DNA from: Pseudomonadota bacterium
GTDB taxonomy: Bacteria; SAR324; NAC60-12
Assembly (NCBI GenBank): GCA_004213175.1
Contig: SHAT01000020.1
Location: forward strand, 1-34,412
Length of the DNA stretch: 34,412 bases
Reading direction: 5' to 3'
Program-made: the position numbers and the translations under genes
In this document: piece by piece, positions 20,107 to 33,283 of the stretch
Numbering within the stretch: position 1 is the stretch's first letter
Layout: every line of letters begins with the position of its first letter
Notes under the pieces: generated by a model
Databases searched by the model: none
What the model was told of the DNA's origin: nothing
Seen by the model: only the letters and a program-made list of their open reading frames with translations

Positions 20107-20674
20107 GATTATCTCTAACTTAAGGTTAAATTTTTTTTAAAATTCCCTAATGGTATTGAACTGTCCATCTGAAAAACCTAATTCATTGCTGTGCAATTAA
20201 CAATACATTTTCTTAAAGAATTTATACATCTGAGCATCATTTAACCTCAGTAATTCGAAAAAAATGTCTTATCTATTATGGTGCTGACATAGGTTTTTTG
20301 CTGCAGAGTTATATGAAAAAGGTATTATACTTTCATAGCTAGTGATAGTCGCATTGAATAACGTGGAAGCAGAAATTAATAGTCGTAACATTCTGCAAAT
20401 CAAAATCGTCAATGAAAAACGAGCCGCTTGCAAGAGTTGAAAACTGGCATTACACTCAGGATGACTCTTTGCTTGATTAGAGGACATTAATAATCACGAT
20501 AATAATGGGATTTAGCTTAAAATCTGCCTTTACTTCAACCTATTTAAAGATAAGTATGCAAGTAAGAGCTCCAATCATGTGTTGGGTTTAGTAACTCTAA
20601 GACGTTTATTTTGCTATTATAAAACAGCAATTCCAGCTTTTTTCCCAGATGAAAAATGTCAACAAAACTTTGTA
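20107..20674. other. Divergent intergenic region between cyclase and lpxK
   Basis: These roughly 570 bases separate the divergently transcribed cyclase operon and lpxK, so they should hold promoters for both. I see no tRNA or clear terminator. A 72-codon minus-strand frame (20269-20487) has no recognisable features and unconvincing composition. A weak 5-bp hairpin (CTGAG/CTCAG near 20231) is the only symmetry noted. The part from 20579 can also be read as a 32-codon in-frame extension of lpxK. Confidence 0.5.
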
Positions 20675-21754
20675 ATGGAAACTATGATTTTTTCAAACAA
20701 ATTTTTAAAACCTTTGCTTTTTGTAACGTCACAGGTTTTTAAAATTTTTGTTCTATTACGACTTCTTGCCTACAAAAATGGCTGGTTAAAAACAAACCGT
20801 GTTAACACACCTGTTATTTCTGTAGGAAATCTGACCATCGGCGGAACTGGGAAAACACCTGTTGTTGATTTGCTGGCAAAGGATTTACAACGGTTGAAAA
20901 AACAACCTGTTATTTTAAGCAGAGGCTATAAACGTAAAAACAAATCGTCTCAGCAGAGGTTACTTTTTTGTGAAGATAGCAAGATCGATCCAGCTTTTTT
21001 TGGGGATGAACCTTATTTACTGGCACAGCGGAATCAGGAGGTCCCCGTCTATGTAGGTGGTTCACGATTTATTACAGCGAATTTAGCTGAAAAACAGGAC
21101 CATCCAGATGTATTGCTACTCGATGATGCATATCAGCATTTAGCAATTCACCGGGATCTTAACTTGCTTTTGATAGACGCAGAACAGGGCTTAGGTAATC
21201 TACATCTGTTTCCTTTTGGTTTGCTACGTGAGCCTGTTAAACAATGGAAACGTGCGGACGCAGTCATTATCACAAAAACAAATTTAGCAACCTCGGACTT
21301 AGTTTTGAGAATGCTCAAACATGAACTGCAGGTCAGCTGTCCCATTTTTAATTTCAATTATGAAATACAACGAATTACCCGACTTGACGGCAAGGCTCAT
21401 TTAAACTTAAATGAAATATCAAATAAGCGCCTGCTTATCACATCAGGTATTGCCCAACCTAAAGGCTTTGAGAGGCTAATAGAACAACAAGGCATAGAGA
21501 GTATATCTAAAATTACATTCCCTGACCACCATGATTTTCGTAGAGAAGATGTGCGGAAGATTTTGGAAGAACAGAAAAAATTAAGACCAGACTACCTGTT
21601 GACTACGGAAAAAGACGCTGTTAAGCTAAGAAACTTTGCTGAACTGGATGAGAAAATTTGGGTTATAGAAATGGAAATGATTCCCGATAAATTGTGGAAC
21701 GATTTTTTTTCGGAATTCCTGCGTGATACATTTGAAACTCCAAAAAATAAATGA
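20675..21754 (+). CDS. lpxK: Tetraacyldisaccharide 4'-kinase
   Basis: LpxK phosphorylates the 4' position of the lipid A disaccharide precursor at the inner membrane, an essential step of lipid A synthesis. The membrane-associating N-terminus (FLKPLLFVTSQVFKIFVLLR) precedes the Walker A segment VGNLTIGGTGKTPVVDLLA. LSRGYKRK, DVLLLDDAYQHLAIHRDLNLLLID with the catalytic Asp, and PFGLLREP follow. FPDHHDF and LLTTEKDAVKL near the end are also typical. The open frame extends upstream to a GTG at 20579. ATG 20675 (359 residues) or ATG 20684 fits the family's usual length better, though ribosome binding sites are weak. It stands alone here, without msbA, waaA or kdsB. Its presence shows an LPS-type outer membrane. 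Confidence 0.93.
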   Translation: METMIFSNKFLKPLLFVTSQVFKIFVLLRLLAYKNGWLKTNRVNTPVISVGNLTIGGTGKTPVVDLLAKDLQRLKKQPVILSRGYKRKNKSSQQRLLFCEDSKIDPAFFGDEPYLLAQRNQEVPVYVGGSRFITANLAEKQDHPDVLLLDDAYQHLAIHRDLNLLLIDAEQGLGNLHLFPFGLLREPVKQWKRADAVIITKTNLATSDLVLRMLKHELQVSCPIFNFNYEIQRITRLDGKAHLNLNEISNKRLLITSGIAQPKGFERLIEQQGIESISKITFPDHHDFRREDVRKILEEQKKLRPDYLLTTEKDAVKLRNFAELDEKIWVIEMEMIPDKLWNDFFSEFLRDTFETPKNK

Positions 21755-21784: not shown

Positions 21785-21814
21785 CTGAAAGTTCAATTTG
21801 TTAATGAGGTGTGC

Positions 21815-23146
21815 GTGAAAAAAATCCTGTTAAAAAATTTACATATAATCAATCCATGTTCCGATCATGCACTTGTTGAGAATGCCTATGTCGCAATTTA
21901 CGGAGACACGATTGAAAGTGTAAGTTCAGGTGAACCTGCCGGAGAGTTTGATGCTGTACATGACCTCTGTGGAAAAATTGCTCTGCCCGGCATGATCAAT
22001 GCTCACCATCATTTATATTCTGCACTCGCTGTGGGGATGCCCCTTCCGAAAAATAATCCTCGCAATTTCAATGAAATCCTAGAGCAGGTTTGGTGGAAAA
22101 TGGACCTAGCTCTTGACCGAGAATCTACACAGGCTTGTTTTGAGGCGGGATTAGTGGAGTCGCTTAAAGCTGGAACTACGACCATCATCGACCACCACTG
22201 CAGTCCTTCTTACATTGAGGGCTCACTCTCACTACTGGCAGAAACTTCAGAAAATTTCGGTTTAAATATTAGCACAGCATTTGAAATTTCTGATCGAAAT
22301 GGACAAGAAAAATTTGAAGCAAGTCTGCAGGAAAATATCGATGCCTTAAGCAAGTTTTCGGGAAATCAGCATGTTCATCCAATGTTAGGCTTGCATGCCT
22401 CTTTTACTCTCTCAGATCTTTCTTTAAGAAAAATTAGGGACAGTCTTGGCAAACTTAAATCCTGGGGAATTCACTCCCATGTTTCCGAAGATAAAGCAGA
22501 TGAGACTGATGCCCTGAAAAAAGGCTTCAACTCTGTTTTGGAGAGGTTAGAAGAATTTGATCTGCTCAATGAAAACGGACTCATTATTCATGGTCTGCAT
22601 ATAAAAGATTCCGATCTTGAGTTGATACAGAAACATGACTCTAAATTTGTTCACAATCCCTCCTCAAATGCGAATAACAGGGTTGGTATTACTCCTAATC
22701 AAAATCTATTAAAATTAAAATCTGGGCTTGGAACGGACGGAATGCAGAGCAACATGTTACGTGAAGCCAAAGAAGGAATGCTGATTCGCAGTTCACATCT
22801 TGAAGGAGGGAAAGACAGTGTTGACTATATGGAGTTGTTATTTAAAAATAATGCCGAAATTGCATCAAATTTATTCTCCGGAAGCATTGGAGGGAGCATA
22901 AAATTAGGTTATATTTTACCGGAGTACCAAGCGGATTTGGCTATTTTTGATTATTTGCCACGAACACCGATTTCAGAATCCACTATTTTTGGCAACATTT
23001 TTTTTGGTTTGAACAGCTTGCCCAGTGATGTCATGACAAGGGGTGAATTCCGGATTCGTGATTATCAACTTCTGGAAGTTTCGGAAGAGGAAATAAAAGC
23101 AAATGCAATTGAACAGTCGAAAAATCTATGGAGTAAGTTCAACTGA
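21815..23146 (+). CDS. ssnA: SsnA-type metal-dependent amidohydrolase
   Basis: This 443-residue protein belongs to the TRZ/ATZ amidohydrolase (TIM-barrel deaminase/chlorohydrolase) superfamily. Metal ligands are visible: NAHHHLY after GMI, HSHVSEDKADE, IIHGLHIKDSD and LGTDGMQSN. The stretch NFNEILEQVWWKMD and the HNPSSNANNRVG loop are characteristic of the SsnA branch. That branch is linked to selenium-dependent molybdenum hydroxylase loci; its reaction is unproven. GTG 21815 is chosen as start because GAGG lies five bases upstream; GTG 21809 is also in frame. It is first in the plus-strand cluster with ygfK and the molybdenum hydroxylase. A ring-opening or deaminating role on an oxidised heterocycle is inference from context. 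Confidence 0.87.
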   Translation: MKKILLKNLHIINPCSDHALVENAYVAIYGDTIESVSSGEPAGEFDAVHDLCGKIALPGMINAHHHLYSALAVGMPLPKNNPRNFNEILEQVWWKMDLALDRESTQACFEAGLVESLKAGTTTIIDHHCSPSYIEGSLSLLAETSENFGLNISTAFEISDRNGQEKFEASLQENIDALSKFSGNQHVHPMLGLHASFTLSDLSLRKIRDSLGKLKSWGIHSHVSEDKADETDALKKGFNSVLERLEEFDLLNENGLIIHGLHIKDSDLELIQKHDSKFVHNPSSNANNRVGITPNQNLLKLKSGLGTDGMQSNMLREAKEGMLIRSSHLEGGKDSVDYMELLFKNNAEIASNLFSGSIGGSIKLGYILPEYQADLAIFDYLPRTPISESTIFGNIFFGLNSLPSDVMTRGEFRIRDYQLLEVSEEEIKANAIEQSKNLWSKFN

Positions 23147-23226
23147 TATTCTATAAAACGTACATTTAACTCTTGTCTTGGAAATGGGAGGAATTCCTTG
23201 CACTAGAACTATTCTCATTTTTATTA

Positions 23227-23247
23227 CTCAGAGCCGTAGTATCTGAG
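23227..23247 (+). other. Hairpin between ssnA and ygfK
   Basis: CTCAGA and TCTGAG form a perfect six-base stem around a nine-base loop, followed by GGAATATTTTT. It could be a weak terminator or attenuator that lowers expression of ygfK relative to ssnA. A separate ten-base palindrome (AGGAATTCCT) lies at 23189-23198. Both may be chance. Confidence 0.3.
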
Positions 23248-23279
23248 GGAATATTTTTCATTTAAACTTCAAAATTGTT

Positions 23280-25358
23280 ATGGCTGAACTAATTCCACAT
23301 CCTTTTGCTTCACTTGTTAAAAGGATGTTCTATGAGTTGGAATCTGAACAATCAATTTTTGATTTTCCGTCAAAAAAATTTTTCTGCGGACTTTCTGGAA
23401 AAGATTATTCAGTAAAATTTCACGCGGAAAGAAGTTCTTCACCACTTGGACCAGCTTCAGGACCTCAAACCCAAATGGCACAAAATATTTTGCTCTCATG
23501 GCTGGGTGGATGCAGGATAATGGAACTTAAAACTGTGCAAATTCTCGATGAACTGGAAATTCCACGACCATGTATTGACATGCAGACTGTCGGTTACAAT
23601 GTGGAATGGTCACAGGAATTACTGATAAATCAGTCACTACATGAATATGTTAAAGGTGCGATGCTAATAGAAATTCTTCAGGCCAGCGGGAAGTTGGAGC
23701 TGGGTGAGAATTTCAAAGATGTGCTTTTTGATATGAGTGTTGGTTACGATTTGGCAGGAATTAAATCTGACAAAGTGCGGCAGTTTATTGAAGGTATGCA
23801 AGATGCGTCTGAAATAGTGGAGCATTACCGACAACAAATTCCAGAGCAATTTCGTCAATTTCGTGAACTGAACTTTCAAACCAGAATTTCTGACACACTG
23901 ACTTTAAGTACATTCCACGGTTGTCCTCCTGAGGAAATTGAAAAAATTATTGATTATCTTTTCCGTGAACACGGTTTGAACTGCATTATCAAACTTAATC
24001 CAACTCTCTTAGGAAGAGAAAAGGTAAGACATATATTCAACGAAATCCTCGGTTATTCTGATGTTCATGTTCCTGATGAAGCATTTGAAAATGACGCCAG
24101 TTGGGAACAGGCTCAAGGTTTTGTTGAACGTCTAGGTGAAACCGCAAAAACTCTTGGCTTAGGTTTTGGAGTGAAATTTAATAATACACTGATTGTGGAG
24201 AATCATAGAGACTTCTTCCCCCAAAGTGAAAAAGTAATGTACCTTTCGGGGACTCCTCTACATGTTTTAGGTATCCATTTGGTGCAGCAATTCCGTGAAA
24301 AATTTGCTGACCAATTCCCAATTTCATTTTCTGCTGGCATTGACAAAACAAACTTCGCAGATGCAGTCGCTTTAGGTTTGACCCCAATAACAGTTTGTAG
24401 TGATTTACTTAAAGTAGGCGGGTATAGCCGTACATTCGGATATTACAAAGAGTTAAATTCACGCATGGACAAATTCGGGGTCAATGATATCGAAAGTTAT
24501 GTACTCAAAGCATATGGAAAAGCTGAGGAGGCACTGGTAAATATAGGTTGCGGTGCTGGGAATACTTCTGGCAAAGAAGAAGAAGCAGTGAGTGCTCTCC
24601 GCCAAGCATTGGAAAACGAGGGTGAAATCGGTAAAGTTGTTCGAGCAGAAGCACCGTTGGTGAATGATATTTTTGAAAAATTACTTTCTGAAGTGAAATT
24701 TCTTAACACTGAAGCATATGTCCATGAGGTCACCAATCAGTTACGTTATACTTTGGAAAAAAACTCAAATCCTCCTAGGAAAGTTGGGACTACACTTGAA
24801 CTATTCGACTGCCTCACCTGCGATAAGTGCATTCCAGTTTGCCCTAATGATGCCAACTTTGCTCTGAAGATTCCTCAGGGAGAAACTGAAATACTGGAGT
24901 TTGAAAAAAATAAATCTGGATGGTTGATCAAAAACAGAGATAGTTTGAAATTAGCAAAAAAATATCAAATTGCGAACTTTGCTGATTTTTGTAATGAATG
25001 CGGAAACTGTGATATTTTCTGTCCTGAGGATGGTGGACCGTATTTGCTCAAACCTAGATTTTTCGGCAGTAAAGAAACGTTTCAGGAATTTAACCATCGT
25101 GATGGTTTTTACATAGAAAATATGAAATCTGAGGAGAATCTGTCAACAGTATTTTCCCGTTTCGGAGGTAAGGAATATCGGCTTGAAACTGAAGGAAAAA
25201 TTGTCAAGTATTCTGGTCCGGATTTTGAGGTTCAGTTTTCAAGAGACGATCCGGAAAATACAATCTCTGGTAAGGCAACAAATAGAGTAAGTTTTTTGAA
25301 TTATGAGATAATGAAGATGATGAGAGACTCATATGACGTCTCTGCTCGCCGTTATTAG
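23280..25358 (+). CDS. ygfK: YgfK-like iron-sulfur oxidoreductase lacking the FAD/NAD module
   Basis: This 692-residue protein matches YgfK at both ends. The N-terminal part (1 to about 470) is a TIM-barrel dihydroorotate-dehydrogenase-like domain with SSSPLGPASGPQTQMAQNI, LSTFHGCPPEEIEKI and IIKLNPTLLG. The C-terminal part has two 4Fe-4S motifs: CLTCDKCIPVC (Cys511, 514, 517, 521) and CNECGNCDIFC (Cys571, 574, 577, 581). In E. coli YgfK (about 1030 residues) a GltD-like FAD/NAD(P) reductase domain lies between these parts. Here the sequence passes straight from one to the other without any GxGxxG nucleotide site. The frame is continuous, so this looks like a designed short form. It is called a putative selenate reductase subunit in databases, a weakly founded name. 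It probably passes electrons for the next gene. Confidence 0.85.
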   Translation: MAELIPHPFASLVKRMFYELESEQSIFDFPSKKFFCGLSGKDYSVKFHAERSSSPLGPASGPQTQMAQNILLSWLGGCRIMELKTVQILDELEIPRPCIDMQTVGYNVEWSQELLINQSLHEYVKGAMLIEILQASGKLELGENFKDVLFDMSVGYDLAGIKSDKVRQFIEGMQDASEIVEHYRQQIPEQFRQFRELNFQTRISDTLTLSTFHGCPPEEIEKIIDYLFREHGLNCIIKLNPTLLGREKVRHIFNEILGYSDVHVPDEAFENDASWEQAQGFVERLGETAKTLGLGFGVKFNNTLIVENHRDFFPQSEKVMYLSGTPLHVLGIHLVQQFREKFADQFPISFSAGIDKTNFADAVALGLTPITVCSDLLKVGGYSRTFGYYKELNSRMDKFGVNDIESYVLKAYGKAEEALVNIGCGAGNTSGKEEEAVSALRQALENEGEIGKVVRAEAPLVNDIFEKLLSEVKFLNTEAYVHEVTNQLRYTLEKNSNPPRKVGTTLELFDCLTCDKCIPVCPNDANFALKIPQGETEILEFEKNKSGWLIKNRDSLKLAKKYQIANFADFCNECGNCDIFCPEDGGPYLLKPRFFGSKETFQEFNHRDGFYIENMKSEENLSTVFSRFGGKEYRLETEGKIVKYSGPDFEVQFSRDDPENTISGKATNRVSFLNYEIMKMMRDSYDVSARRY

Positions 25359-25391
25359 TGAGTCTTGTATATTGACTATGAAAGGAGATAA

Positions 25392-27941
25392 ATGGAATTC
25401 AAACTAAACGGTAACTCAATAGATTTCGAGGGAGATCCGGAATTATCTTTAATGACATATTTACGTGATATTGAAAATATAATCTCGCCTAAGGACGGTT
25501 GTGCCCCGGAGGGAGTCTGTGGATGTTGTTGTGTACTGCTGGATGGGAATCCTCTCAAAGCCTGTATTGCACCAATGAGACGTGTAGCCGGAAAAGAAGT
25601 GGTAACGATGGAAGGACTGGATGCAAATAAAAAAGAAACTGTGATCAATGCCTTTGCCACCGAAGGAGGTCTACAATGCGGATTTTGTACACCGGGAATC
25701 ATCATGAAAGTCTGGCCATTGTTGAATCAGGGATTTGTTACAGAAAGCGAAGTCAACAAAGCCCTAAATAGTAACCTCTGCCGTTGCACAGGTTATAAAA
25801 AAATCACTAAATCCTGTCTCTCTGCAGCTCAAGCTTTACGAAATAATGCTAAAATCGAGCTACCTAAAAGCAACGGGAAAGTTGGTGAAAGCCTGCTAAA
25901 ATATGACGCACTTAGACTTGCTTCAGGAGAGGCTCCATATGTCGCTGATCTTAAATTTACAGGTATGGTACACGGTGCCTTGAAATTCAGTGAACATCCC
26001 AGAGCAAAAATTTTAAATATTGACATTTCTAATGCAGAAAAACTGGAAGGTGTGTTACGTGTTTTTACTGCGGAAGATATTCCTGGCGATCGTTCCACCG
26101 GACTGATTGTACCGGATTGGCCCTTGATGTTAAAGCGTGGAGAACTAACACGTTATATGGGTGATGTTCTAGCTGGAGTTGTTGCTAAAACTGAGAAAAT
26201 CGCACGTGAAGCTGTTACTCTGATCAAGGTGGAATATGAGGTGCTTGAGCCTGTTACGGATCCTTTTGAGGCACTTGCCGCTGACTGTCCGCAAATTCAC
26301 GAAAGTGGAAATTTATTATCTAACCTTGAGATTAAGAGAGGTGACAACAAGCAGACAGAAAAAGAAAGTGCTTTTGTCACAAAAGGAAATTACAAAACAC
26401 AACGAATTGAACATGCATTTTTGGAAATCGAATGCTGCTTGGCAAAACCTTCAGGAGATGGTGTTGAAGTTTTTTCTCAGAGTCAGGGAGTCTATGAAGA
26501 CCGCAACAGTATTAGTAAAATTTTGGGGCTACCACTGGAAAAAGTTGTTGTGGTTTTAATGCCAAACGGAGGAGGTTTCGGTGGTAAGGAGGACATTTCT
26601 GTGCAGGGTCATGCAGCCCTATTTGCTCACCTTCTTCAAGTACCCGTGAGAGTTGCGCTGACTCGTCCGGAATCGCTTTGCATGCATCCAAAGCGGCATC
26701 CGATGAACATGGAAATCTCTCTTGGTTGTGATAAAAAAGGTAAGCTGACTTTCGTTAATGCGGATATAATCGGTGACACTGGTGCTTATGCATCAGTAGG
26801 CATGAAAGTATTGGAACGTGCGGCGGGACATGCCACCAGTGCGTATTCTATTCCCGTTGTAAATATTCGTAGCCGAGCGGTTTACACCAATAATGTCCCA
26901 TGTGGTGCAATGCGCGGATTTGGTGTAAATCAAATTAATTTTGCGATTGAAAGTTGTATTGATGAACTTTGTCTCCAGGGTGGTTTTGACCGCTGGCAAA
27001 TTAGATATGACAATGCTCTCCAGCCGGGAGACCGTACCTCGACGGGTCAAGAAATAACTTCCGGAATAGGAATTCAGAAAACATTGTTGGCAGTCAAAGA
27101 GCAGTTTGAAAACGCAAAATATGCAGGAATTGCCTGCGGGATGAAAAACACCGGAATCGGAAACGGGGTTTCTGACGAAAGTATAGTCAAGGTGTTGATT
27201 GAGTCACCAACTGAAATAAGTATTCATCATGGATGGACGGAAATGGGCCAGGGAGTTTTTACGATGGCAGTTCAGTTTTTATGTGAAGCAACTGGTGTAG
27301 ATCCGGATTATGTAAAAGTAAAAGTTGATACTTCCAAAGATGCGCCTTGCGGTATGACAACTGCTTCACGTGGTACATCTCTAATTGGAAATAGTGTTTT
27401 GGACGCAGGTAAAAAATTAAAAGCAGATTTGGAAAAACATTCTCTTACAGAATTGGTAGGTAGAGAATATATAGGAGAATGGTCCTGTACGTGGACCACA
27501 GCAATTGAGGATAATCTAGAGGAGCCTAAAACTCATTATTCATACAGCTATGCAACTCAGGTTGTGACTCTGGATGACTCAGGAAAAGTGGATACTGTCT
27601 ATGCTGCTCACGACGCTGGAAGGATAGTTAATCCAATTTTGTTTGAAGGTCAGCTCGAAGGCTCAGTTCACATGGGACTGGGTTATGCGCTTTCTGAAAA
27701 ATTTGAAATGGAAGAGTCCCGTCCAGTACACACAAAGTTCGGTAAACTTGGAATGATTCGTGCGGCGGCTACACCACGTATCGTTATTATCGGTATCGAA
27801 GAACCCGATGAATTTGGTCCATGTGGAGCAAAAGGTGTTGGCGAAATAGGTCTCGTTCCAACTGCATCTGCTGTTGCAAATGCTTTTTGCCAGTTCAATG
27901 GCGAACGACAATATGAGCTACCTTTAAAGAAAGTTAAATAA
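25392..27941 (+). CDS. Fused 2Fe-2S/molybdopterin hydroxylase (selenium-dependent xanthine dehydrogenase type)
   Basis: This 849-residue enzyme of the xanthine oxidase family carries the iron-sulfur and molybdenum parts in one chain. Cys37, 43, 46 and 58 form the plant-type 2Fe-2S site, and Cys96, 99, 130 and 132 (CGFC...CRC) the second. The molybdopterin part has GGGFGGKEDIS, GAMRGFGVNQ and GMTTASRGTSLIGN. The catalytic Glu818 lies in KGVGEIGLVPTASA. Length and layout fit the selenium-dependent molybdenum hydroxylase group. Substrates would be N-heterocycles such as purines. No FAD subunit gene (ygfM/xdhB) and no selD, yqeB, yqeC or xdhC is in the window. AAGGAGAT precedes the ATG, the best ribosome binding site in the cluster. 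It follows ygfK by 33 bases. Confidence 0.88.
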   Translation: MEFKLNGNSIDFEGDPELSLMTYLRDIENIISPKDGCAPEGVCGCCCVLLDGNPLKACIAPMRRVAGKEVVTMEGLDANKKETVINAFATEGGLQCGFCTPGIIMKVWPLLNQGFVTESEVNKALNSNLCRCTGYKKITKSCLSAAQALRNNAKIELPKSNGKVGESLLKYDALRLASGEAPYVADLKFTGMVHGALKFSEHPRAKILNIDISNAEKLEGVLRVFTAEDIPGDRSTGLIVPDWPLMLKRGELTRYMGDVLAGVVAKTEKIAREAVTLIKVEYEVLEPVTDPFEALAADCPQIHESGNLLSNLEIKRGDNKQTEKESAFVTKGNYKTQRIEHAFLEIECCLAKPSGDGVEVFSQSQGVYEDRNSISKILGLPLEKVVVVLMPNGGGFGGKEDISVQGHAALFAHLLQVPVRVALTRPESLCMHPKRHPMNMEISLGCDKKGKLTFVNADIIGDTGAYASVGMKVLERAAGHATSAYSIPVVNIRSRAVYTNNVPCGAMRGFGVNQINFAIESCIDELCLQGGFDRWQIRYDNALQPGDRTSTGQEITSGIGIQKTLLAVKEQFENAKYAGIACGMKNTGIGNGVSDESIVKVLIESPTEISIHHGWTEMGQGVFTMAVQFLCEATGVDPDYVKVKVDTSKDAPCGMTTASRGTSLIGNSVLDAGKKLKADLEKHSLTELVGREYIGEWSCTWTTAIEDNLEEPKTHYSYSYATQVVTLDDSGKVDTVYAAHDAGRIVNPILFEGQLEGSVHMGLGYALSEKFEMEESRPVHTKFGKLGMIRAAATPRIVIIGIEEPDEFGPCGAKGVGEIGLVPTASAVANAFCQFNGERQYELPLKKVK

Positions 27942-28007
27942 TTAAAAATGCGGGGTTATTCTTGTTTGAGATCGCCCTACTGATATAAATAAACTTGAGA
28001 TCTTTTA

Positions 28008-29240
28008 ATGTCATTATCTAATCTTCGTATAAACATAGACCGTCTTATCTCAAGAATTGAAGGACTAGCTGAAATTGGAGCAATTGACGGCGGCGGTGTA
28101 TGTAGAATGGCGCTGACCGATGAAGATCGTCAGGGGCGTGATCTGGTTGTTAAATGGATGCATGAACTTGATCTGGAAGTTACAGTTGATCAAATTGGAA
28201 ACGTTGTCGGGATTCGTGCAGGACAGGAATCCGGAAGACCTGTGATGACAGGATCACATATAGATACGGTGGCAAGTGGCGGACGTTATGATGGAAATCT
28301 AGGGGTTCTTGCAGGTTTGGAAGTAATTGAAACCTTGAATGACTCCAACATTATAACACGAAAACCGATTGGAGTTGGTTTTTTTACCAATGAAGAAGGT
28401 TCCCGTTTTGCTCCTGACATGATGGGGAGTGGAGTTCATCAAGGTGCTTTTGAACTTAAAAGGATGTTGGATGTCCTTGACATTGATGGAGAACGTGTTG
28501 GAGATGAGCTCGAAAAAATTGGTTATGCTGGAGACACCTCAACAGGTGATTTTCGTGCAGACAGTTTTTTTGAACTGCATGTTGAGCAAGGTCCAATTCT
28601 TGAGTTGGAGGATTATGAAATAGGTGCAGTTGAAGGTGTTCAGGGTATTTCCTGGAATGAATATCGGATTGGCGGTACCGCAAACCATGCAGGGACAACA
28701 CCTATGAGGCTCAGGCATGATGCAGGATACGTAGCAGCAGCTATTTCGATAGAGGTACGACGCCTTGCCAAGGAAATGGGTGGTGATCAAATCGGAACTG
28801 TCGGCGTAACAAAACTAAATCCGGGACTGATAAATGTGATTGCTAAAGAAGCACTGATTACAATTGATATGCGTAATACAGACGAACAGAAATTACAAGA
28901 AGCGGAACGGTCAATCGGGTCATTTATTGAACAAATCTGCAAAGCAGAAGGGGTGACCTGCTCAAGCCGCACACTCGCCAGATTTGAGCCTGTTTTATTT
29001 GATAAAAAAATGATTTCATTAGTATCTGAGACAGCATCAGCACTTGGTTTCCGTGTAAAATCAATGCCATCTGGAGCTGGACATGATGCACAAATGTTTG
29101 CACCGAATTGTCCAACAGCCATGATCTTTGTTCCCAGCCAAAACGGTATAAGTCACAATGTAGCAGAATATACTGAGCCAAAACACCTTCAAGCCGGTGC
29201 CGATGTGCTTCTGCAAATTATGCTGCATAAATCTTTATAA
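28008..29240 (+). CDS. M20-family N-carbamoyl-L-amino-acid hydrolase / allantoate amidohydrolase
   Basis: This 410-residue protein is a dizinc M20-type amidohydrolase. Metal ligands are in place: His84 and Asp95 (GSHIDTVASGGRYDGNLG), Glu129-Glu130 (FTNEEGSRFAP), His191 (ELHVEQGPILE) and His383 (SHNVAEYT). The dimerisation-domain segment GTANHAGTTPMRLRHDA is typical of the HyuC/AllC group. These enzymes cleave ureido groups from N-carbamoyl-L-amino acids or allantoate, releasing CO2 and ammonia. Sequence alone does not choose between the two. Standing next to an N-carbamoyl-D-amino-acid hydrolase favours the carbamoylase reading, while the purine-type hydroxylase upstream favours allantoate. 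GAGAT lies just before the ATG. It follows the hydroxylase by 66 bases and precedes the nitrilase-fold gene by 14. Confidence 0.88.
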   Translation: MSLSNLRINIDRLISRIEGLAEIGAIDGGGVCRMALTDEDRQGRDLVVKWMHELDLEVTVDQIGNVVGIRAGQESGRPVMTGSHIDTVASGGRYDGNLGVLAGLEVIETLNDSNIITRKPIGVGFFTNEEGSRFAPDMMGSGVHQGAFELKRMLDVLDIDGERVGDELEKIGYAGDTSTGDFRADSFFELHVEQGPILELEDYEIGAVEGVQGISWNEYRIGGTANHAGTTPMRLRHDAGYVAAAISIEVRRLAKEMGGDQIGTVGVTKLNPGLINVIAKEALITIDMRNTDEQKLQEAERSIGSFIEQICKAEGVTCSSRTLARFEPVLFDKKMISLVSETASALGFRVKSMPSGAGHDAQMFAPNCPTAMIFVPSQNGISHNVAEYTEPKHLQAGADVLLQIMLHKSL

Positions 29241-29254
29241 ACAATAATAGTTTG

Positions 29255-30193
29255 ATGCCAAGAATCATAAAAGTAGCTGCAGCACAACTCGGTCCCATAG
29301 CCTTAGCTGAAACACGTTCTTCAGCAGTCAAACGTATGATAAACCTAATGCAAAATGCCAAAGCACAAGACGCTGAGTTGGTTGTTTTTCCAGAACTGGC
29401 ACTAACGACTTTTTTCCCGCGCTGGTATTTCGAGGAACAGTCCCAAATTGACAAATTTTTCGAAACGGAAATGCCAAACAAACAGATACAACCTTTGTTT
29501 GATGAAGCAAGGAAACTAAAAATCGGCTTCAATTTCGGTTTTGCAGAACTTGTTGAGGAAGACGGAGTCACCCGTCATTTTAATACTGCGGTGATTGTTA
29601 ATGATCGGGGAGAAATTGCTGCTAAATACCGGAAGATACATTTACCTGGTCACATAGAAAATGAAACTTGGCGAGCGTTTCAGCATCTTGAGAAAAGATA
29701 TTTTGAAAAGGGTAATTTAGGATTTCAGGTTCATAAGTTATTTAGCGGAAAGATCGGCATGTGTATATGTAATGACCGCCGTTGGCCGGAGACTTTTCGT
29801 GTCATGGGACTGCAGGGAGTAGAGCTTGTAGTTTTGGGTTATAACACACCAAAACATTATCCGCCTGCACCTGAACATGATCATCTGCAAGAGTTTCATA
29901 ACCATTTGTCTTTACAGGCTGCAGCGTATCAAAATGGCACCTGGATTGTCGCTGTTGCGAAAGCCGGGAAAGAAGAGGACTGTGAGCTGATAGGAGGTAC
30001 GTGTATCATTGCACCTACAGGAGAAATTGTCGCCGAGTGCAAAACACTCGCAGATGAGTTGATTTTGGCTGAATGTGACCTAGAACGCTGCAAGGAGATT
30101 CAGGAAAACATTTTCAATTTTGACCTTCATCGTCAACCTGAAGACTATTCTTTAATTACCGAAGCTAAAAAAGAATCCCCCCCAAACCATTAA
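29255..30193 (+). CDS. N-carbamoyl-D-amino-acid amidohydrolase (nitrilase superfamily)
   Basis: This 312-residue protein aligns by eye, almost without gaps, to the Agrobacterium D-carbamoylase. FPELALTTFFPRW, KYRKIHLPGH, FQHLEKRYFE, CNDRRWPETFRVMGLQG and the end IFNFDLHRQPEDYSLI are shared in style and order. Counting from ATG 29255, the catalytic triad is Glu47, Lys127 and Cys172, the same numbers as in that enzyme. It hydrolyses N-carbamoyl-D-amino acids to D-amino acids, CO2 and ammonia, the last step of D-hydantoin use. A TTG lies directly before the ATG and lengthens the frame by one codon. It starts 14 bases after the M20 gene. Its stop overlaps the stop of the convergent PhyH gene. Confidence 0.93.
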   Translation: MPRIIKVAAAQLGPIALAETRSSAVKRMINLMQNAKAQDAELVVFPELALTTFFPRWYFEEQSQIDKFFETEMPNKQIQPLFDEARKLKIGFNFGFAELVEEDGVTRHFNTAVIVNDRGEIAAKYRKIHLPGHIENETWRAFQHLEKRYFEKGNLGFQVHKLFSGKIGMCICNDRRWPETFRVMGLQGVELVVLGYNTPKHYPPAPEHDHLQEFHNHLSLQAAAYQNGTWIVAVAKAGKEEDCELIGGTCIIAPTGEIVAECKTLADELILAECDLERCKEIQENIFNFDLHRQPEDYSLITEAKKESPPNH

Positions 30194-31032
30194 AATCCAC
30201 GCAAAGGCATTTCAGGAGAGCGTTTGAGCCAGTTGGACTCAGGGTAATGCGCTTCTTTTTCAATTAGATGGATTGTATAGGCGTGTCTTGTCATGTCAGA
30301 ACGATTAGCATAGCTCATATGGGGTAAGAGCCCGTCCAAAACCACCATTGTCCCGGTTTTTGCTTCAAGAGGGACCAGTTTGGAAGTCTCCCAAGCGGAA
30401 TCATCATAGACCTCCATTTCAGTTCCTTCCCCATTTTCGCTACGGTAAAACCGCGATTTCAATCCTTTTTTGTGAGCTCCCGGAATTGTCCATAAACAGC
30501 CGTTTTGTTGAGTAGCATCTTCTAAAGCAAACCAAAAACCTTTAACGCTCAACGGCTCTGTATAAAGGAAAGTTGAGTCCTGATGAAAGCTGACTTCACC
30601 GCCTATACGGGGCTGTTTGAAAATGAACATTGACTGCAGTATTCCAGGATCCTTATAACCTAAATCTTTTACTGTCTGGGCTAACTCAGTAGTTCTGGAA
30701 AATTTTTCAAAAACTGGATCCAGGTCATGCATCGCGTGACCGATTTTATTGATGGAATATTTTTTATCCTGAAGCAGTTTCCCATTTTTGTCGAATGCTT
30801 CTTCCTCAAAAAAACAACGAATTTTATCACCTGATTCCAGAAAATATTTATCAGAATGTCTTATTTGATCATTGGTGGTGAAAATGGAACTTGATTCAGC
30901 AGGATCGAAATTTTCAACTATTTCCAAGGCTCTGTGACGCAGCGATTCACATGCCTTTGGACTTACAAAGTCTTCTAAAATTAAATATCCATCATGGTCA
31001 AACAATTCAATTTGCTTTTGAGTCAATATCAT
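30190..31032 (-). CDS. Phytanoyl-CoA dioxygenase (PhyH) family oxygenase
   Basis: This 280-residue protein is an Fe(II)/2-oxoglutarate-dependent oxygenase of the PhyH family. The iron triad is visible: His150 and Asp152 (SFHQDST) and His238 (LLPHMSYANRS). Arg249 lies 11 residues later, matching the 2-oxoglutarate-binding Arg spacing of human PHYH. The N-terminal FDHDGYLILEDFVSP is typical. The closest-looking relatives act on small molecules rather than acyl-CoA, but the substrate cannot be read from sequence. AAGGAAACT precedes the ATG. The gene is divergent from oadG and convergent with the carbamoylase, overlapping its stop by three bases (TTAA shared), so it is a separate unit inserted between two plus-strand operons. 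Confidence 0.88.
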   Translation of the reverse strand: MILTQKQIELFDHDGYLILEDFVSPKACESLRHRALEIVENFDPAESSSIFTTNDQIRHSDKYFLESGDKIRCFFEEEAFDKNGKLLQDKKYSINKIGHAMHDLDPVFEKFSRTTELAQTVKDLGYKDPGILQSMFIFKQPRIGGEVSFHQDSTFLYTEPLSVKGFWFALEDATQQNGCLWTIPGAHKKGLKSRFYRSENGEGTEMEVYDDSAWETSKLVPLEAKTGTMVVLDGLLPHMSYANRSDMTRHAYTIHLIEKEAHYPESNWLKRSPEMPLRGF

Positions 31033-31165: not shown

Positions 31166-31417
31166 ATGTTGTGGGAAGGACTCAAGCTAATGGGTGTCGG
31201 CATGACGGCAGTCATGATATTTTTGATGTTGTTGATTGCCTGTATTGAGTGGGTTAAATATTTCAATCGCAACTTTACTGCACTTGAGCTGCAAACTCAG
31301 AAATCTCATAGAAAATCCCGTGATTCTCCTACAAAAAATGAAGCCAGTCCGGCAGTTCCTGTTGAGGTCTTTGCAGCGGCAATTAACGCTTTTGAAGCAG
31401 ATAATAAGAGTTCTTAA
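31166..31417 (+). CDS. oadG: Na+-pumping decarboxylase gamma subunit
   Basis: This 83-residue protein has a single membrane helix near its N-terminus (GVGMTAVMIFLMLLIACIEW). A short charged and Pro/Ala-containing cytoplasmic tail ends in AAAINAFEADNK. This is the OadG layout (pfam sodium pump decarboxylase gamma chain), in which the helix anchors the complex and the tail binds the alpha subunit. The segment PVEVFAAAINAF after a variable linker is the recurring tail element of this family. It precedes oadA by 48 bases and oadB follows, so the order gamma-alpha-beta of known decarboxylases is kept. Small size makes homology less certain, but context settles it. Confidence 0.88.
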   Translation: MLWEGLKLMGVGMTAVMIFLMLLIACIEWVKYFNRNFTALELQTQKSHRKSRDSPTKNEASPAVPVEVFAAAINAFEADNKSS

Positions 31418-31465
31418 CCTAATATATTTCAATATCTAAACTCAAATCTAATAGGAAAAATATCA

Positions 31466-33283
31466 ATGGCAAGGAAACGTATTGAGTTTATGGAGACATC
31501 TTTCCGAGACGGCTTTCAGTCTGTTTTCGGTGCACGAGTCGCAACTAAAGATTTTCTACCACCATTAGAAGCTGCACTTGAAGCTGGAATAACCTACTTT
31601 GAGGCAGGGGGCGGTGCTCGGTTTCAAAGTTTGTTTTTTTATTGTAACGAATCTGCTTTTGACATGATGGACTCGTTTCGAAAAACAGTTGGGCCGGATG
31701 CGAATTTACAGACTCTTGCACGTGGAATAAACGTGGTGGCGCTCAGTCAACAACCTCGTGACATGATTGACCTACATGCTAAAATGTTCAAAAAACATGG
31801 CATAACGACTATCCGCAACTTTGATGCATTGAACGATTTGCGCAATCTTAGATTTTCTGGAGAGTGCATCACAAACCATGGTTTGCATCATCAAATCGTT
31901 ATTGCGATGATGGATTTACCTCCTGGTTGCAAAGGTGCGCATGATACTAAATATTATTTGAAAACTCTTCGTAATATTTTAGATTCGGATGTGCCTTTTG
32001 ATTCGATCTGTTTCAAAGATGCCAGCGGAACGGCGAATCCTAGGAAAGTCCATGAGACGATCAAAGGTGCTAGAAAGATGGTTCCGGAAGGTACTATTCT
32101 GCACCTGCACACACATGATACCGCGGGTACAGCAGTGAGCCAGTACATGAGTGCAATTGAAGGCGGAATTGACAGAATTGATCTTGCGATGAGTCCTGTA
32201 AGCGGTGGGACAGGGCAGCCTGACATACTCACAATGTGGCACGCTCTAAAAGGAACTGATTACACTCTGGACATAGATCCTGATAAAATAATTAAAGCGG
32301 AAGAGATTTTTGCGGAAAGCTTTGAGGATTATTATTTCCCTCCTGAATCCCGTATGGTTTCACCACTGATTCCTTTTTCACCAATGCCTGGAGGTGCTTT
32401 GACTGCTAATACAATGATGATGCGTGACACAGGAACTTTGCACCTGTATCCGGATGTCATCAAAGAAATGTCGGAAGTTGTTAGGTTGGGAGGTTTTGGT
32501 GCGTCAGTCACGCCTGTGTCACAGTTTTATTTTCAACAGGCATATCTAAACGTGACACTTGGCAAATGGGAAAAAATCAATCCATCATACGGAAACATGG
32601 TGTTGGGTTACTTTGGTCGGACACCGGTGGAGCCGGATCCGGAAATTGTAAAACTAGCTTCTGAACAGTTGGATAAACCTGTTTTCAATGATGATCCTCT
32701 AGACTTATTGGAACCTGGAACCCCAAAAGCAGCAGCAGAACTTAAAAAACATAACCTGCCTGAAACAGAGGAAAACCTGTTCATTGCTTCAAGTTGTGAG
32801 GAAAAAGGTATTGATTTTCTTCTGGGCAAAGCCAAAACTTCAATCAGGAAAAAATCGGACGAAACAGCAAAAGAAGTCCCGGCGTCTGGAAAATCAACAG
32901 CGCCAAATCTCTCCGGGAGTGTTGAATCTCTAAAAGGACCAAGAGATTACACCATCACTGTTGACGGCAGAGCATATCAAGTTCAAGTCAACGCCGGTGT
33001 AAATGCGGTTGCACCGGTTGTTTCCGGAAATACCGCAGAGAACGCACCTGCGACTCAGCAGACATCTGGAATTGACATCCCTGCTCCAACTCCCGGAAAC
33101 ATCGTAAGGCTGGAAGTAGAGGTTGGTGAGACAATTACCGCAGACCAAACTCTACTCGTGATGGAAGCCATGAAAATGGAATCTGATGTTAAATCTCCAC
33201 AATCTGGGGTCATACAAACTATTAATGTGCAAGCAGGAGACACGGTGCAATCGGGAGATGCTTTACTTTCACTAAAGGTCTGA
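31466..33283 (+). CDS. oadA: Biotin-dependent Na+-pump decarboxylase alpha subunit (OadA-like)
   Basis: This 605-residue protein has three parts. A carboxyltransferase TIM barrel (about 1-300) and a conserved PYC/OadA domain (about 300-470) are followed, after an Ala/Ser/Pro-rich linker, by a C-terminal biotinyl domain with VMEAMKMESDV (biotin Lys570, 35 residues from the end). It transfers CO2 from a 2-oxo acid, classically oxaloacetate, to biotin. Metal and catalytic residues are visible: Asp15 in RDGFQS, the Lys in CFKDASG, and the HTHD motif. However, the usual RDAHQS loop reads RDGFQS and KDMAG reads KDASG, so the substrate may not be oxaloacetate. AGGA lies ten bases before the ATG. It is the middle gene of oadGAB. 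Confidence 0.88.
   Translation: MARKRIEFMETSFRDGFQSVFGARVATKDFLPPLEAALEAGITYFEAGGGARFQSLFFYCNESAFDMMDSFRKTVGPDANLQTLARGINVVALSQQPRDMIDLHAKMFKKHGITTIRNFDALNDLRNLRFSGECITNHGLHHQIVIAMMDLPPGCKGAHDTKYYLKTLRNILDSDVPFDSICFKDASGTANPRKVHETIKGARKMVPEGTILHLHTHDTAGTAVSQYMSAIEGGIDRIDLAMSPVSGGTGQPDILTMWHALKGTDYTLDIDPDKIIKAEEIFAESFEDYYFPPESRMVSPLIPFSPMPGGALTANTMMMRDTGTLHLYPDVIKEMSEVVRLGGFGASVTPVSQFYFQQAYLNVTLGKWEKINPSYGNMVLGYFGRTPVEPDPEIVKLASEQLDKPVFNDDPLDLLEPGTPKAAAELKKHNLPETEENLFIASSCEEKGIDFLLGKAKTSIRKKSDETAKEVPASGKSTAPNLSGSVESLKGPRDYTITVDGRAYQVQVNAGVNAVAPVVSGNTAENAPATQQTSGIDIPAPTPGNIVRLEVEVGETITADQTLLVMEAMKMESDVKSPQSGVIQTINVQAGDTVQSGDALLSLKV

Follow-up and report, generated by a model that had tools for sequence, protein, structure and literature searches.

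Reductive degradation of uric acid in Escherichia coli involves XdhD-YgfM, YgfK, SsnA, HyuA, YgeW, YqeA, YgeY, and YgeX (PMC12507026). The first three enzymes of the pathway (XdhD or XdhAC, YgfK, and SsnA) have been characterized: urate is converted to 2,8-dioxopurine, the ring is reduced, and SsnA opens it to ureidomethyl-hydantoin (PMC12507026, PMC12990295). In E. coli, HyuA then yields 2,3-diureidopropionate, YgeW and YgeY strip the ureido groups, and YgeX forms pyruvate (PMC12507026). The set of Clostridioides difficile and Clostridium sporogenes consists of XdhD or XdhAC, UacX, SsnA, HyuA, UacY, YgeY, and YgeX; in C. difficile, both reductases are without FAD modules and the hydrolase UacY stands in place of YgeW. 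Here we examine five genes on contig SHAT01000020.1 (C13) of a SAR324 metagenome-assembled genome (G000; 2.27 Mb, 83% complete), which encode an SsnA-family aminohydrolase, a short YgfK, a xanthine dehydrogenase-type molybdenum enzyme (XDH), an M20-family carbamoylase, and a D-carbamoylase of the CN-hydrolase superfamily. The window is the whole contig of 34,412 nucleotides.

These genes form a real, conserved cluster whose lower half is new, and they probably specify a variant of the reductive uric acid pathway with an all-hydrolytic cassette for removing the ureido groups of 2,3-diureidopropionate. As in the E. coli pathway, an XDH-type molybdenum enzyme, YgfK, and SsnA are adjacent and are accompanied by two putative ureido-removing enzymes, but the SAR324 YgfK is without the FAD/NAD(P)H section, the cluster contains no YgfM, HyuA, or YgeX, and the M20 carbamoylase and D-carbamoylase replace YgeW, YqeA, and YgeY. 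The likeness to C. difficile and C. sporogenes lies in a molybdenum enzyme without an FAD subunit, a reductase without an FAD domain, and the predicted hydrolytic removal of the 2-ureido group; unlike in those species, the reductase is of the YgfK type rather than UacX, the predicted 2-ureido hydrolase is a CN-hydrolase-type D-carbamoylase rather than the amidohydrolase UacY, and M20 replaces YgeY. The reductive pyrimidine pathway (PreA/PreT, dihydropyrimidinase, and beta-ureidopropionase), of which the same genome has a separate copy on contig C6, shares the logic of reducing a ring, opening it, and removing a carbamoyl group.

In the proposed route, the molybdenum enzyme would convert urate to 2,8-dioxopurine, YgfK would reduce the ring of this compound, and SsnA would hydrolyze the product to ureidomethyl-hydantoin, each step being assigned from its demonstrated counterpart in E. 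coli or C. sporogenes. The hydantoin may then be opened by a D-hydantoinase whose gene lies outside the cluster, which would yield 2,3-diureidopropionate. From this, the D-carbamoylase would take the 2-ureido group and M20 the 3-ureido group, or vice versa, each being simply hydrolyzed to NH3 and CO2, and the product, 2,3-diaminopropionate, would be deaminated to pyruvate by a pyridoxal phosphate (PLP) enzyme. With a hydrolase pair in place of the carbamoyltransferase YgeW, carbamate kinase, and YgeY, the ATP that those enzymes recover would be forgone.

Upper half of the pathway

By homology, SsnA, YgfK, and XDH make up the upper half of reductive uric acid degradation. In profile searches, SsnA matched Pfam Amidohydro_1 and scored 380 bits with NF005540, under the cut-off of 444. 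It shares 33% identity with E. coli SsnA and retains the metal-site motifs HxH (NAHHHLY, residue 64 of the open reading frame starting at 21809), GLHAS, HSHVSED, and GTDGM. An earlier note, made from the sequence of this DNA, had suggested SsnA as the ring opener, and this agrees with the ring opening demonstrated for SsnA in E. coli (PMC12507026).

YgfK scored 437 bits with TIGR03315 (cut-off 835), its middle section being absent. Identity to E. coli YgfK is 39% at residues 7-417 and 28% in the Fe-S region from residue 904; to the E. coli residues in between, nothing convincing aligned. The absent section, of about 480 residues, is where E. coli YgfK has its FAD and NAD(P)H sites. Two CxxCxxCxxxC motifs are found at 511 and 571, and the fold of the AlphaFold model (predicted local distance difference test score, 79.8) matches dihydroorotate and dihydropyrimidine dehydrogenases, while a PDB sequence search returned no relative. 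The short form of YgfK occurs across many phyla in our genome scan.

XDH, with Fer2_2 and MoCoBD domains, scored 921 bits with TIGR03311, over the cut-off of 830, and no FAD subunit gene adjoins it in the cluster. Judging from its homologs, the molybdenum enzyme would be expected to act on urate by reductive dehydroxylation, with YgfK then reducing the ring; the hydroxylation of a heterocycle envisaged in the earlier note is not borne out, as the homologous upper pathway is reductive. Both reductases are without an NAD(P)H/FAD module of their own and probably depend on ferredoxin or a distinct flavoprotein as electron donor; the PreT encoded on C6 could be a candidate for the latter.

The same note had linked the cluster to selenium, and TIGR03311 bears a name to that effect, but a labile selenium cofactor is unlikely. 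Neither yqeB nor yqeC was found in any of 31 family genomes (the E. coli control was positive), and a selenium-dependent molybdenum hydroxylase was rejected on this ground. SelD is present in the SAR324 genome with an in-frame TGA and occurs also in relatives without YgfK, and thus fits a selenocysteine trait.

Lower half and its exchange with the YgeW module

In profile searches, the M20 protein scored 403 bits with TIGR01879, over the cut-off of 204. Its metal-ligand motifs are retained at residues 84, 95, 130, 191, and 383, and its nearest PDB chains belong to the L-carbamoylase/beta-alanine synthase class. The D-carbamoylase aligns with the Agrobacterium D-carbamoylase 1fo6 at 416 bits over 301 residues (E = 5e-124), and its motifs VFPEL, KYRKIHL, and CNDRRWPE contain the Glu/Lys/Cys triad and the Arg-Arg pair of the carboxylate clamp. 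A D-carbamoylase suits the pathway because the R (D) configuration has been proposed for the ureido intermediates (PMC12990295). No YgeW was found in a search of the same genome (best match, E = 3.9e-8, 31%), a search that did not include UacY.

Wherever contigs extend far enough, members of the genus share the order LpxK-SsnA-YgfK-XDH-[slot]-PhyH-OadG-OadA. The slot holds carbamate kinase-YgeW-YgeY in seven same-genus loci (G001, G003, G007, G008c, G010, G011b, and G016) and M20-D-carbamoylase in nine (G000, G002, G004, G006, G008b, G009, G011a, G012, and G013), G012 being counted by M20 alone because its contig ends there. In two of the nine, G004 and G013 (L194 and L195), a carbamate kinase is kept ahead of M20-D-carbamoylase, apparently a leftover of the YgeW-type module. 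The number of module changes is at least three on the XDH tree and at least five on the PhyH tree, minimum counts on imperfect trees in which many inner branches are weak. That different enzyme sets repeatedly replace each other at one position is as would be expected if the two modules were functionally equivalent. The view of the earlier note that two ureido-cleaving enzymes complete the route is supported. As for the linkage in relatives that the note had proposed to check, the first three genes stay linked, but roughly half of the same-genus loci have carbamate kinase-YgeW-YgeY in the position of the last two.

No contig of this genus carries both modules, and it is only for the slot in this genus that we claim their exclusivity. 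Exclusivity per genome was dropped, as the G008 and G011 bins have each module on a different contig, with a PhyH of its own in each case; this double content is probably due to mixed strains. L067, L077, and G020 carry both within one contig; in the SAR324 genome G020, M20-D-carbamoylase shares a contig with carbamate kinase-YgeW-YgeY-YgeX.

Scanning genomes for the short YgfK gave 79 loci in SAR324, Myxococcota, Planctomycetota, Elusimicrobiota, Acidobacteriota, and further groups, and co-occurrence was counted in the 59 loci of at least 10 kb, window included; these loci are related by descent, so that the counts are not independent tests. M20 and a CN-hydrolase are both present in 23 long loci and both absent from 36, neither being found alone. 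YgeW and YgeY occur together in 11 of 12 (YgeW alone in one, YgeY alone in none, and neither in 47). In UBA5680 (L081), XDH, D-carbamoylase, M20, and diaminopropionate ammonia-lyase follow one another, opposite to SsnA-YgfK, and in L047 M20, a CN-hydrolase, and diaminopropionate ammonia-lyase are adjacent; the ammonia-lyase adjoining the pair in these loci ties the hydrolases to diaminopropionate. Since the SsnA-YgfK-XDH order is kept in the genus and the linkage recurs in other phyla, the grouping of the five genes is no accident, and their reading as one functional unit, also made in the earlier note, is supported.

Weighing the proposed pathway

Several observations weigh against the proposed pathway. 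XDH shares only 24% identity with E. coli XdhD. The CN-hydrolase partner of M20 is of the D-carbamoylase kind in SAR324 and UBA5680 and beta-ureidopropionase-like in other phyla, a pattern suggestive of two independent recruitments to one position; because this partner differs, the assignment of the ureido groups to the two enzymes is tentative. Hydantoinase is missing from the cluster and was found in only 1 of the 79 loci. The YgeX (diaminopropionate ammonia-lyase) homolog on contig C7 (L199:7218-8459) scores 262 bits, under the cut-off of 274, and is split by an in-frame TAA, which makes the last step uncertain. Gene absences are themselves soft in a genome of 83% completeness.

The low identity of XDH is no argument against urate as the substrate, because the XdhD proteins of C. 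difficile and E. coli share only ~25%, and C. sporogenes XdhAC and E. coli XdhD both make 2,8-dioxopurine (PMC12507026, PMC12990295). As to the hydantoinase, two D-hydantoinase homologs over the cut-off are encoded outside the cluster, one on contig C76 and one within the PreA-PreT pyrimidine operon of C6, and among the family genomes a D-hydantoinase gene is present in 17 of the 18 that bear YgfK, compared to 4 of the 13 others.

For the final deamination, intact diaminopropionate ammonia-lyase homologs are found in G006 and G015. The SAR324 genome itself encodes, on contig C27 (L116:6453-9251), a pair of PLP proteins, c3 (~500 amino acids, cysteine-synthase-like) and c5 (~400 amino acids, threonine-synthase-like), which may take the place of YgeX. 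The families of this pair sit within YgfK/SsnA/XDH clusters of other phyla, and in the SAR324 genome G028 the pair follows YgeW-YgeY in one run. Among the long loci, c3 occurs in 26, with c5 or c9 in 25 of these and with YgeX in none. A claim of strict exclusivity between c3 and YgeX was softened, as G020 has c3 beside a YgeX homolog; c3 is thus no simple substitute for YgeX. We put forward only tentatively the wider proposal that marine and soil lineages (SAR324, Phycisphaerales, Myxococcota, Elusimicrobiota, and Acidobacteriota) might combine the reductive urate pathway with a fully hydrolytic cassette and a new two-protein PLP system (c3-like with a threonine-synthase-like partner) replacing YgeX, some SAR324 switching to the oxidative route.

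It has to be asked whether the last two genes are instead an N-carbamoyl amino acid or hydantoin utilization pair that lies beside a urate core and serves hydantoins made elsewhere. D-carbamoylases and M20 carbamoylases are classic partners of hydantoinases, the same families make up the hydantoinase-carbamoylase (hyu) systems, and the D-hydantoinase gene on C76 adjoins an Asp/Glu/hydantoin racemase-like gene. Unlike in hyu systems, however, the SAR324 pair lies within a urate-reduction cluster that contains no hydantoinase or racemase; it occupies the same slot as carbamate kinase-YgeW-YgeY, and it is linked with the YgfK core across several phyla, with the ammonia-lyase gene adjacent in L081 and L047. 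We therefore consider this explanation unlikely.

A role in oxidative urate degradation, with M20 as an allantoate amidohydrolase, XDH making urate for that route, and YgfK and SsnA having some other function, would find support in the NCBIfam names that top the M20 matches, which are those of allantoate amidohydrolase subfamilies, and in the oxidative urate genes of this genome and its relatives. Contig C38 (L227:9489-11602) encodes urate oxidase (Urate_ox_N), 5-hydroxyisourate hydrolase, and 2-oxo-4-hydroxy-4-carboxy-5-ureidoimidazoline (OHCU) decarboxylase, and G007 has in addition PuuE allantoinase, allantoicase, and xanthine permease. Yet the M20 protein scores only 265 bits with the AllC equivalog TIGR03176, far under the cut-off of 598. 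OHCU decarboxylase was not found in the M20-module genomes G002, G004, G011, G013, and G020 (the last 93% complete) but is present in the YgeW-module genomes G003, G007, and G010; it tracks neither YgfK nor either lower module, and the oxidative route thus does not explain M20. The allantoicase of G007 can deal with allantoate, and a D-carbamoylase has no part in the oxidative route. M20 as the allantoate amidohydrolase of that route was accordingly rejected, and the reading as a whole is very improbable. Least probable of all is an N-heterocycle other than urate as the substrate, which the distance of XDH from E. coli XdhD, with a gap at the Glu606 position in the alignment, and a substrate predicted from homology would allow, but against which stand the formation of 2,8-dioxopurine by both C. 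sporogenes XdhAC and E. coli XdhD despite low identity among homologs (PMC12507026, PMC12990295) and the action of the YgfK-SsnA pair on that compound.

The presence of the oxidative genes suggests that some SAR324 may degrade urate both oxidatively and reductively. Dual routes, if true, would suit life along oxygen gradients. Two further loci, L228 and L229, hold oxidative urate route genes in SAR324 genomes that have the reductive cluster as well, and relatives add PuuE and allantoicase.

Range and novelty

The earlier note had supposed an undescribed pathway; the upper half corresponds to the reductive uric acid pathway that was worked out in 2025 for gut bacteria, and it is the lower half that is new. 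A review holds the pathway to be restricted to obligate or facultative anaerobes (PMC12990295), and the known range would be broader if it occurs in ocean SAR324 and in many environmental phyla, in some cases together with the oxidative route. The same review lists as open questions which ureido group leaves first and the stereochemistry of the intermediates (PMC12990295). A stereospecific D-carbamoylase of well-known mechanism, swapping with YgeW-YgeY at one locus, makes both directly testable on two soluble hydrolases. On reductive uric acid degradation, literature searches covering only a smaller part of the subscription literature returned the pathway paper of 2025, a comment on it, and reviews, but nothing else, and they returned no paper pairing SAR324 with xanthine dehydrogenase; a study of ocean purine cross-feeding mentions neither SAR324 nor the cluster genes.

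Gene layout and flanks

The five genes are intact open reading frames in one direction, separated by 133, 33, 66, and 11 bp in order (Table 1), much as the earlier note had them, and the profile matches agree with its assignments, with refinements. For SsnA, the start at 21815 is favored because GAGG lies just upstream; for the D-carbamoylase, ATG at 29255 is likelier than TTG at 29252. Rfam and tRNA searches of the window gave no match, and promoter and terminator scans gave nothing above chance level.

Table 1. Coordinates of the cluster genes and their flanks in the window
Feature	Position	Strand	Remarks
SsnA-family aminohydrolase, predicted opener of the reduced purine ring	21815..23146	+	GTG start; alternative GTG 21809
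Short YgfK, FMN-type reductase domain and C-terminal 4Fe-4S domain, without FAD/NAD(P)H section	23280..25358	+	
Fused [2Fe-2S]/molybdopterin enzyme (XDH), TIGR03311 type, predicted urate to 2,8-dioxopurine	25392..27941	+	
M20-family carbamoylase, predicted remover of one ureido group	28008..29240	+	
D-carbamoylase (N-carbamoyl-D-amino-acid amidohydrolase, CN-hydrolase superfamily), predicted 2-ureido remover	29255..30193	+	ATG; alternative TTG 29252
LpxK	20579..21754	+	Pfam LpxK, 295 bits; constant upstream flank in genus; outside pathway
PhyH-family dioxygenase	30190..31032	-	Pfam PhyH, 159 bits; convergent constant downstream flank; outside pathway as far as known

The copy of the reductive pyrimidine pathway on C6 (L118:7390-12552) is an operon of PreA, PreT, dihydropyrimidinase, and a beta-ureidopropionase-like CN-hydrolase, with transporter-like genes near. 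In the window, positions 31166-33283 hold genes resembling the gamma and alpha subunits of a biotin-dependent sodium-pump decarboxylase, and their order after PhyH is conserved in the genus.

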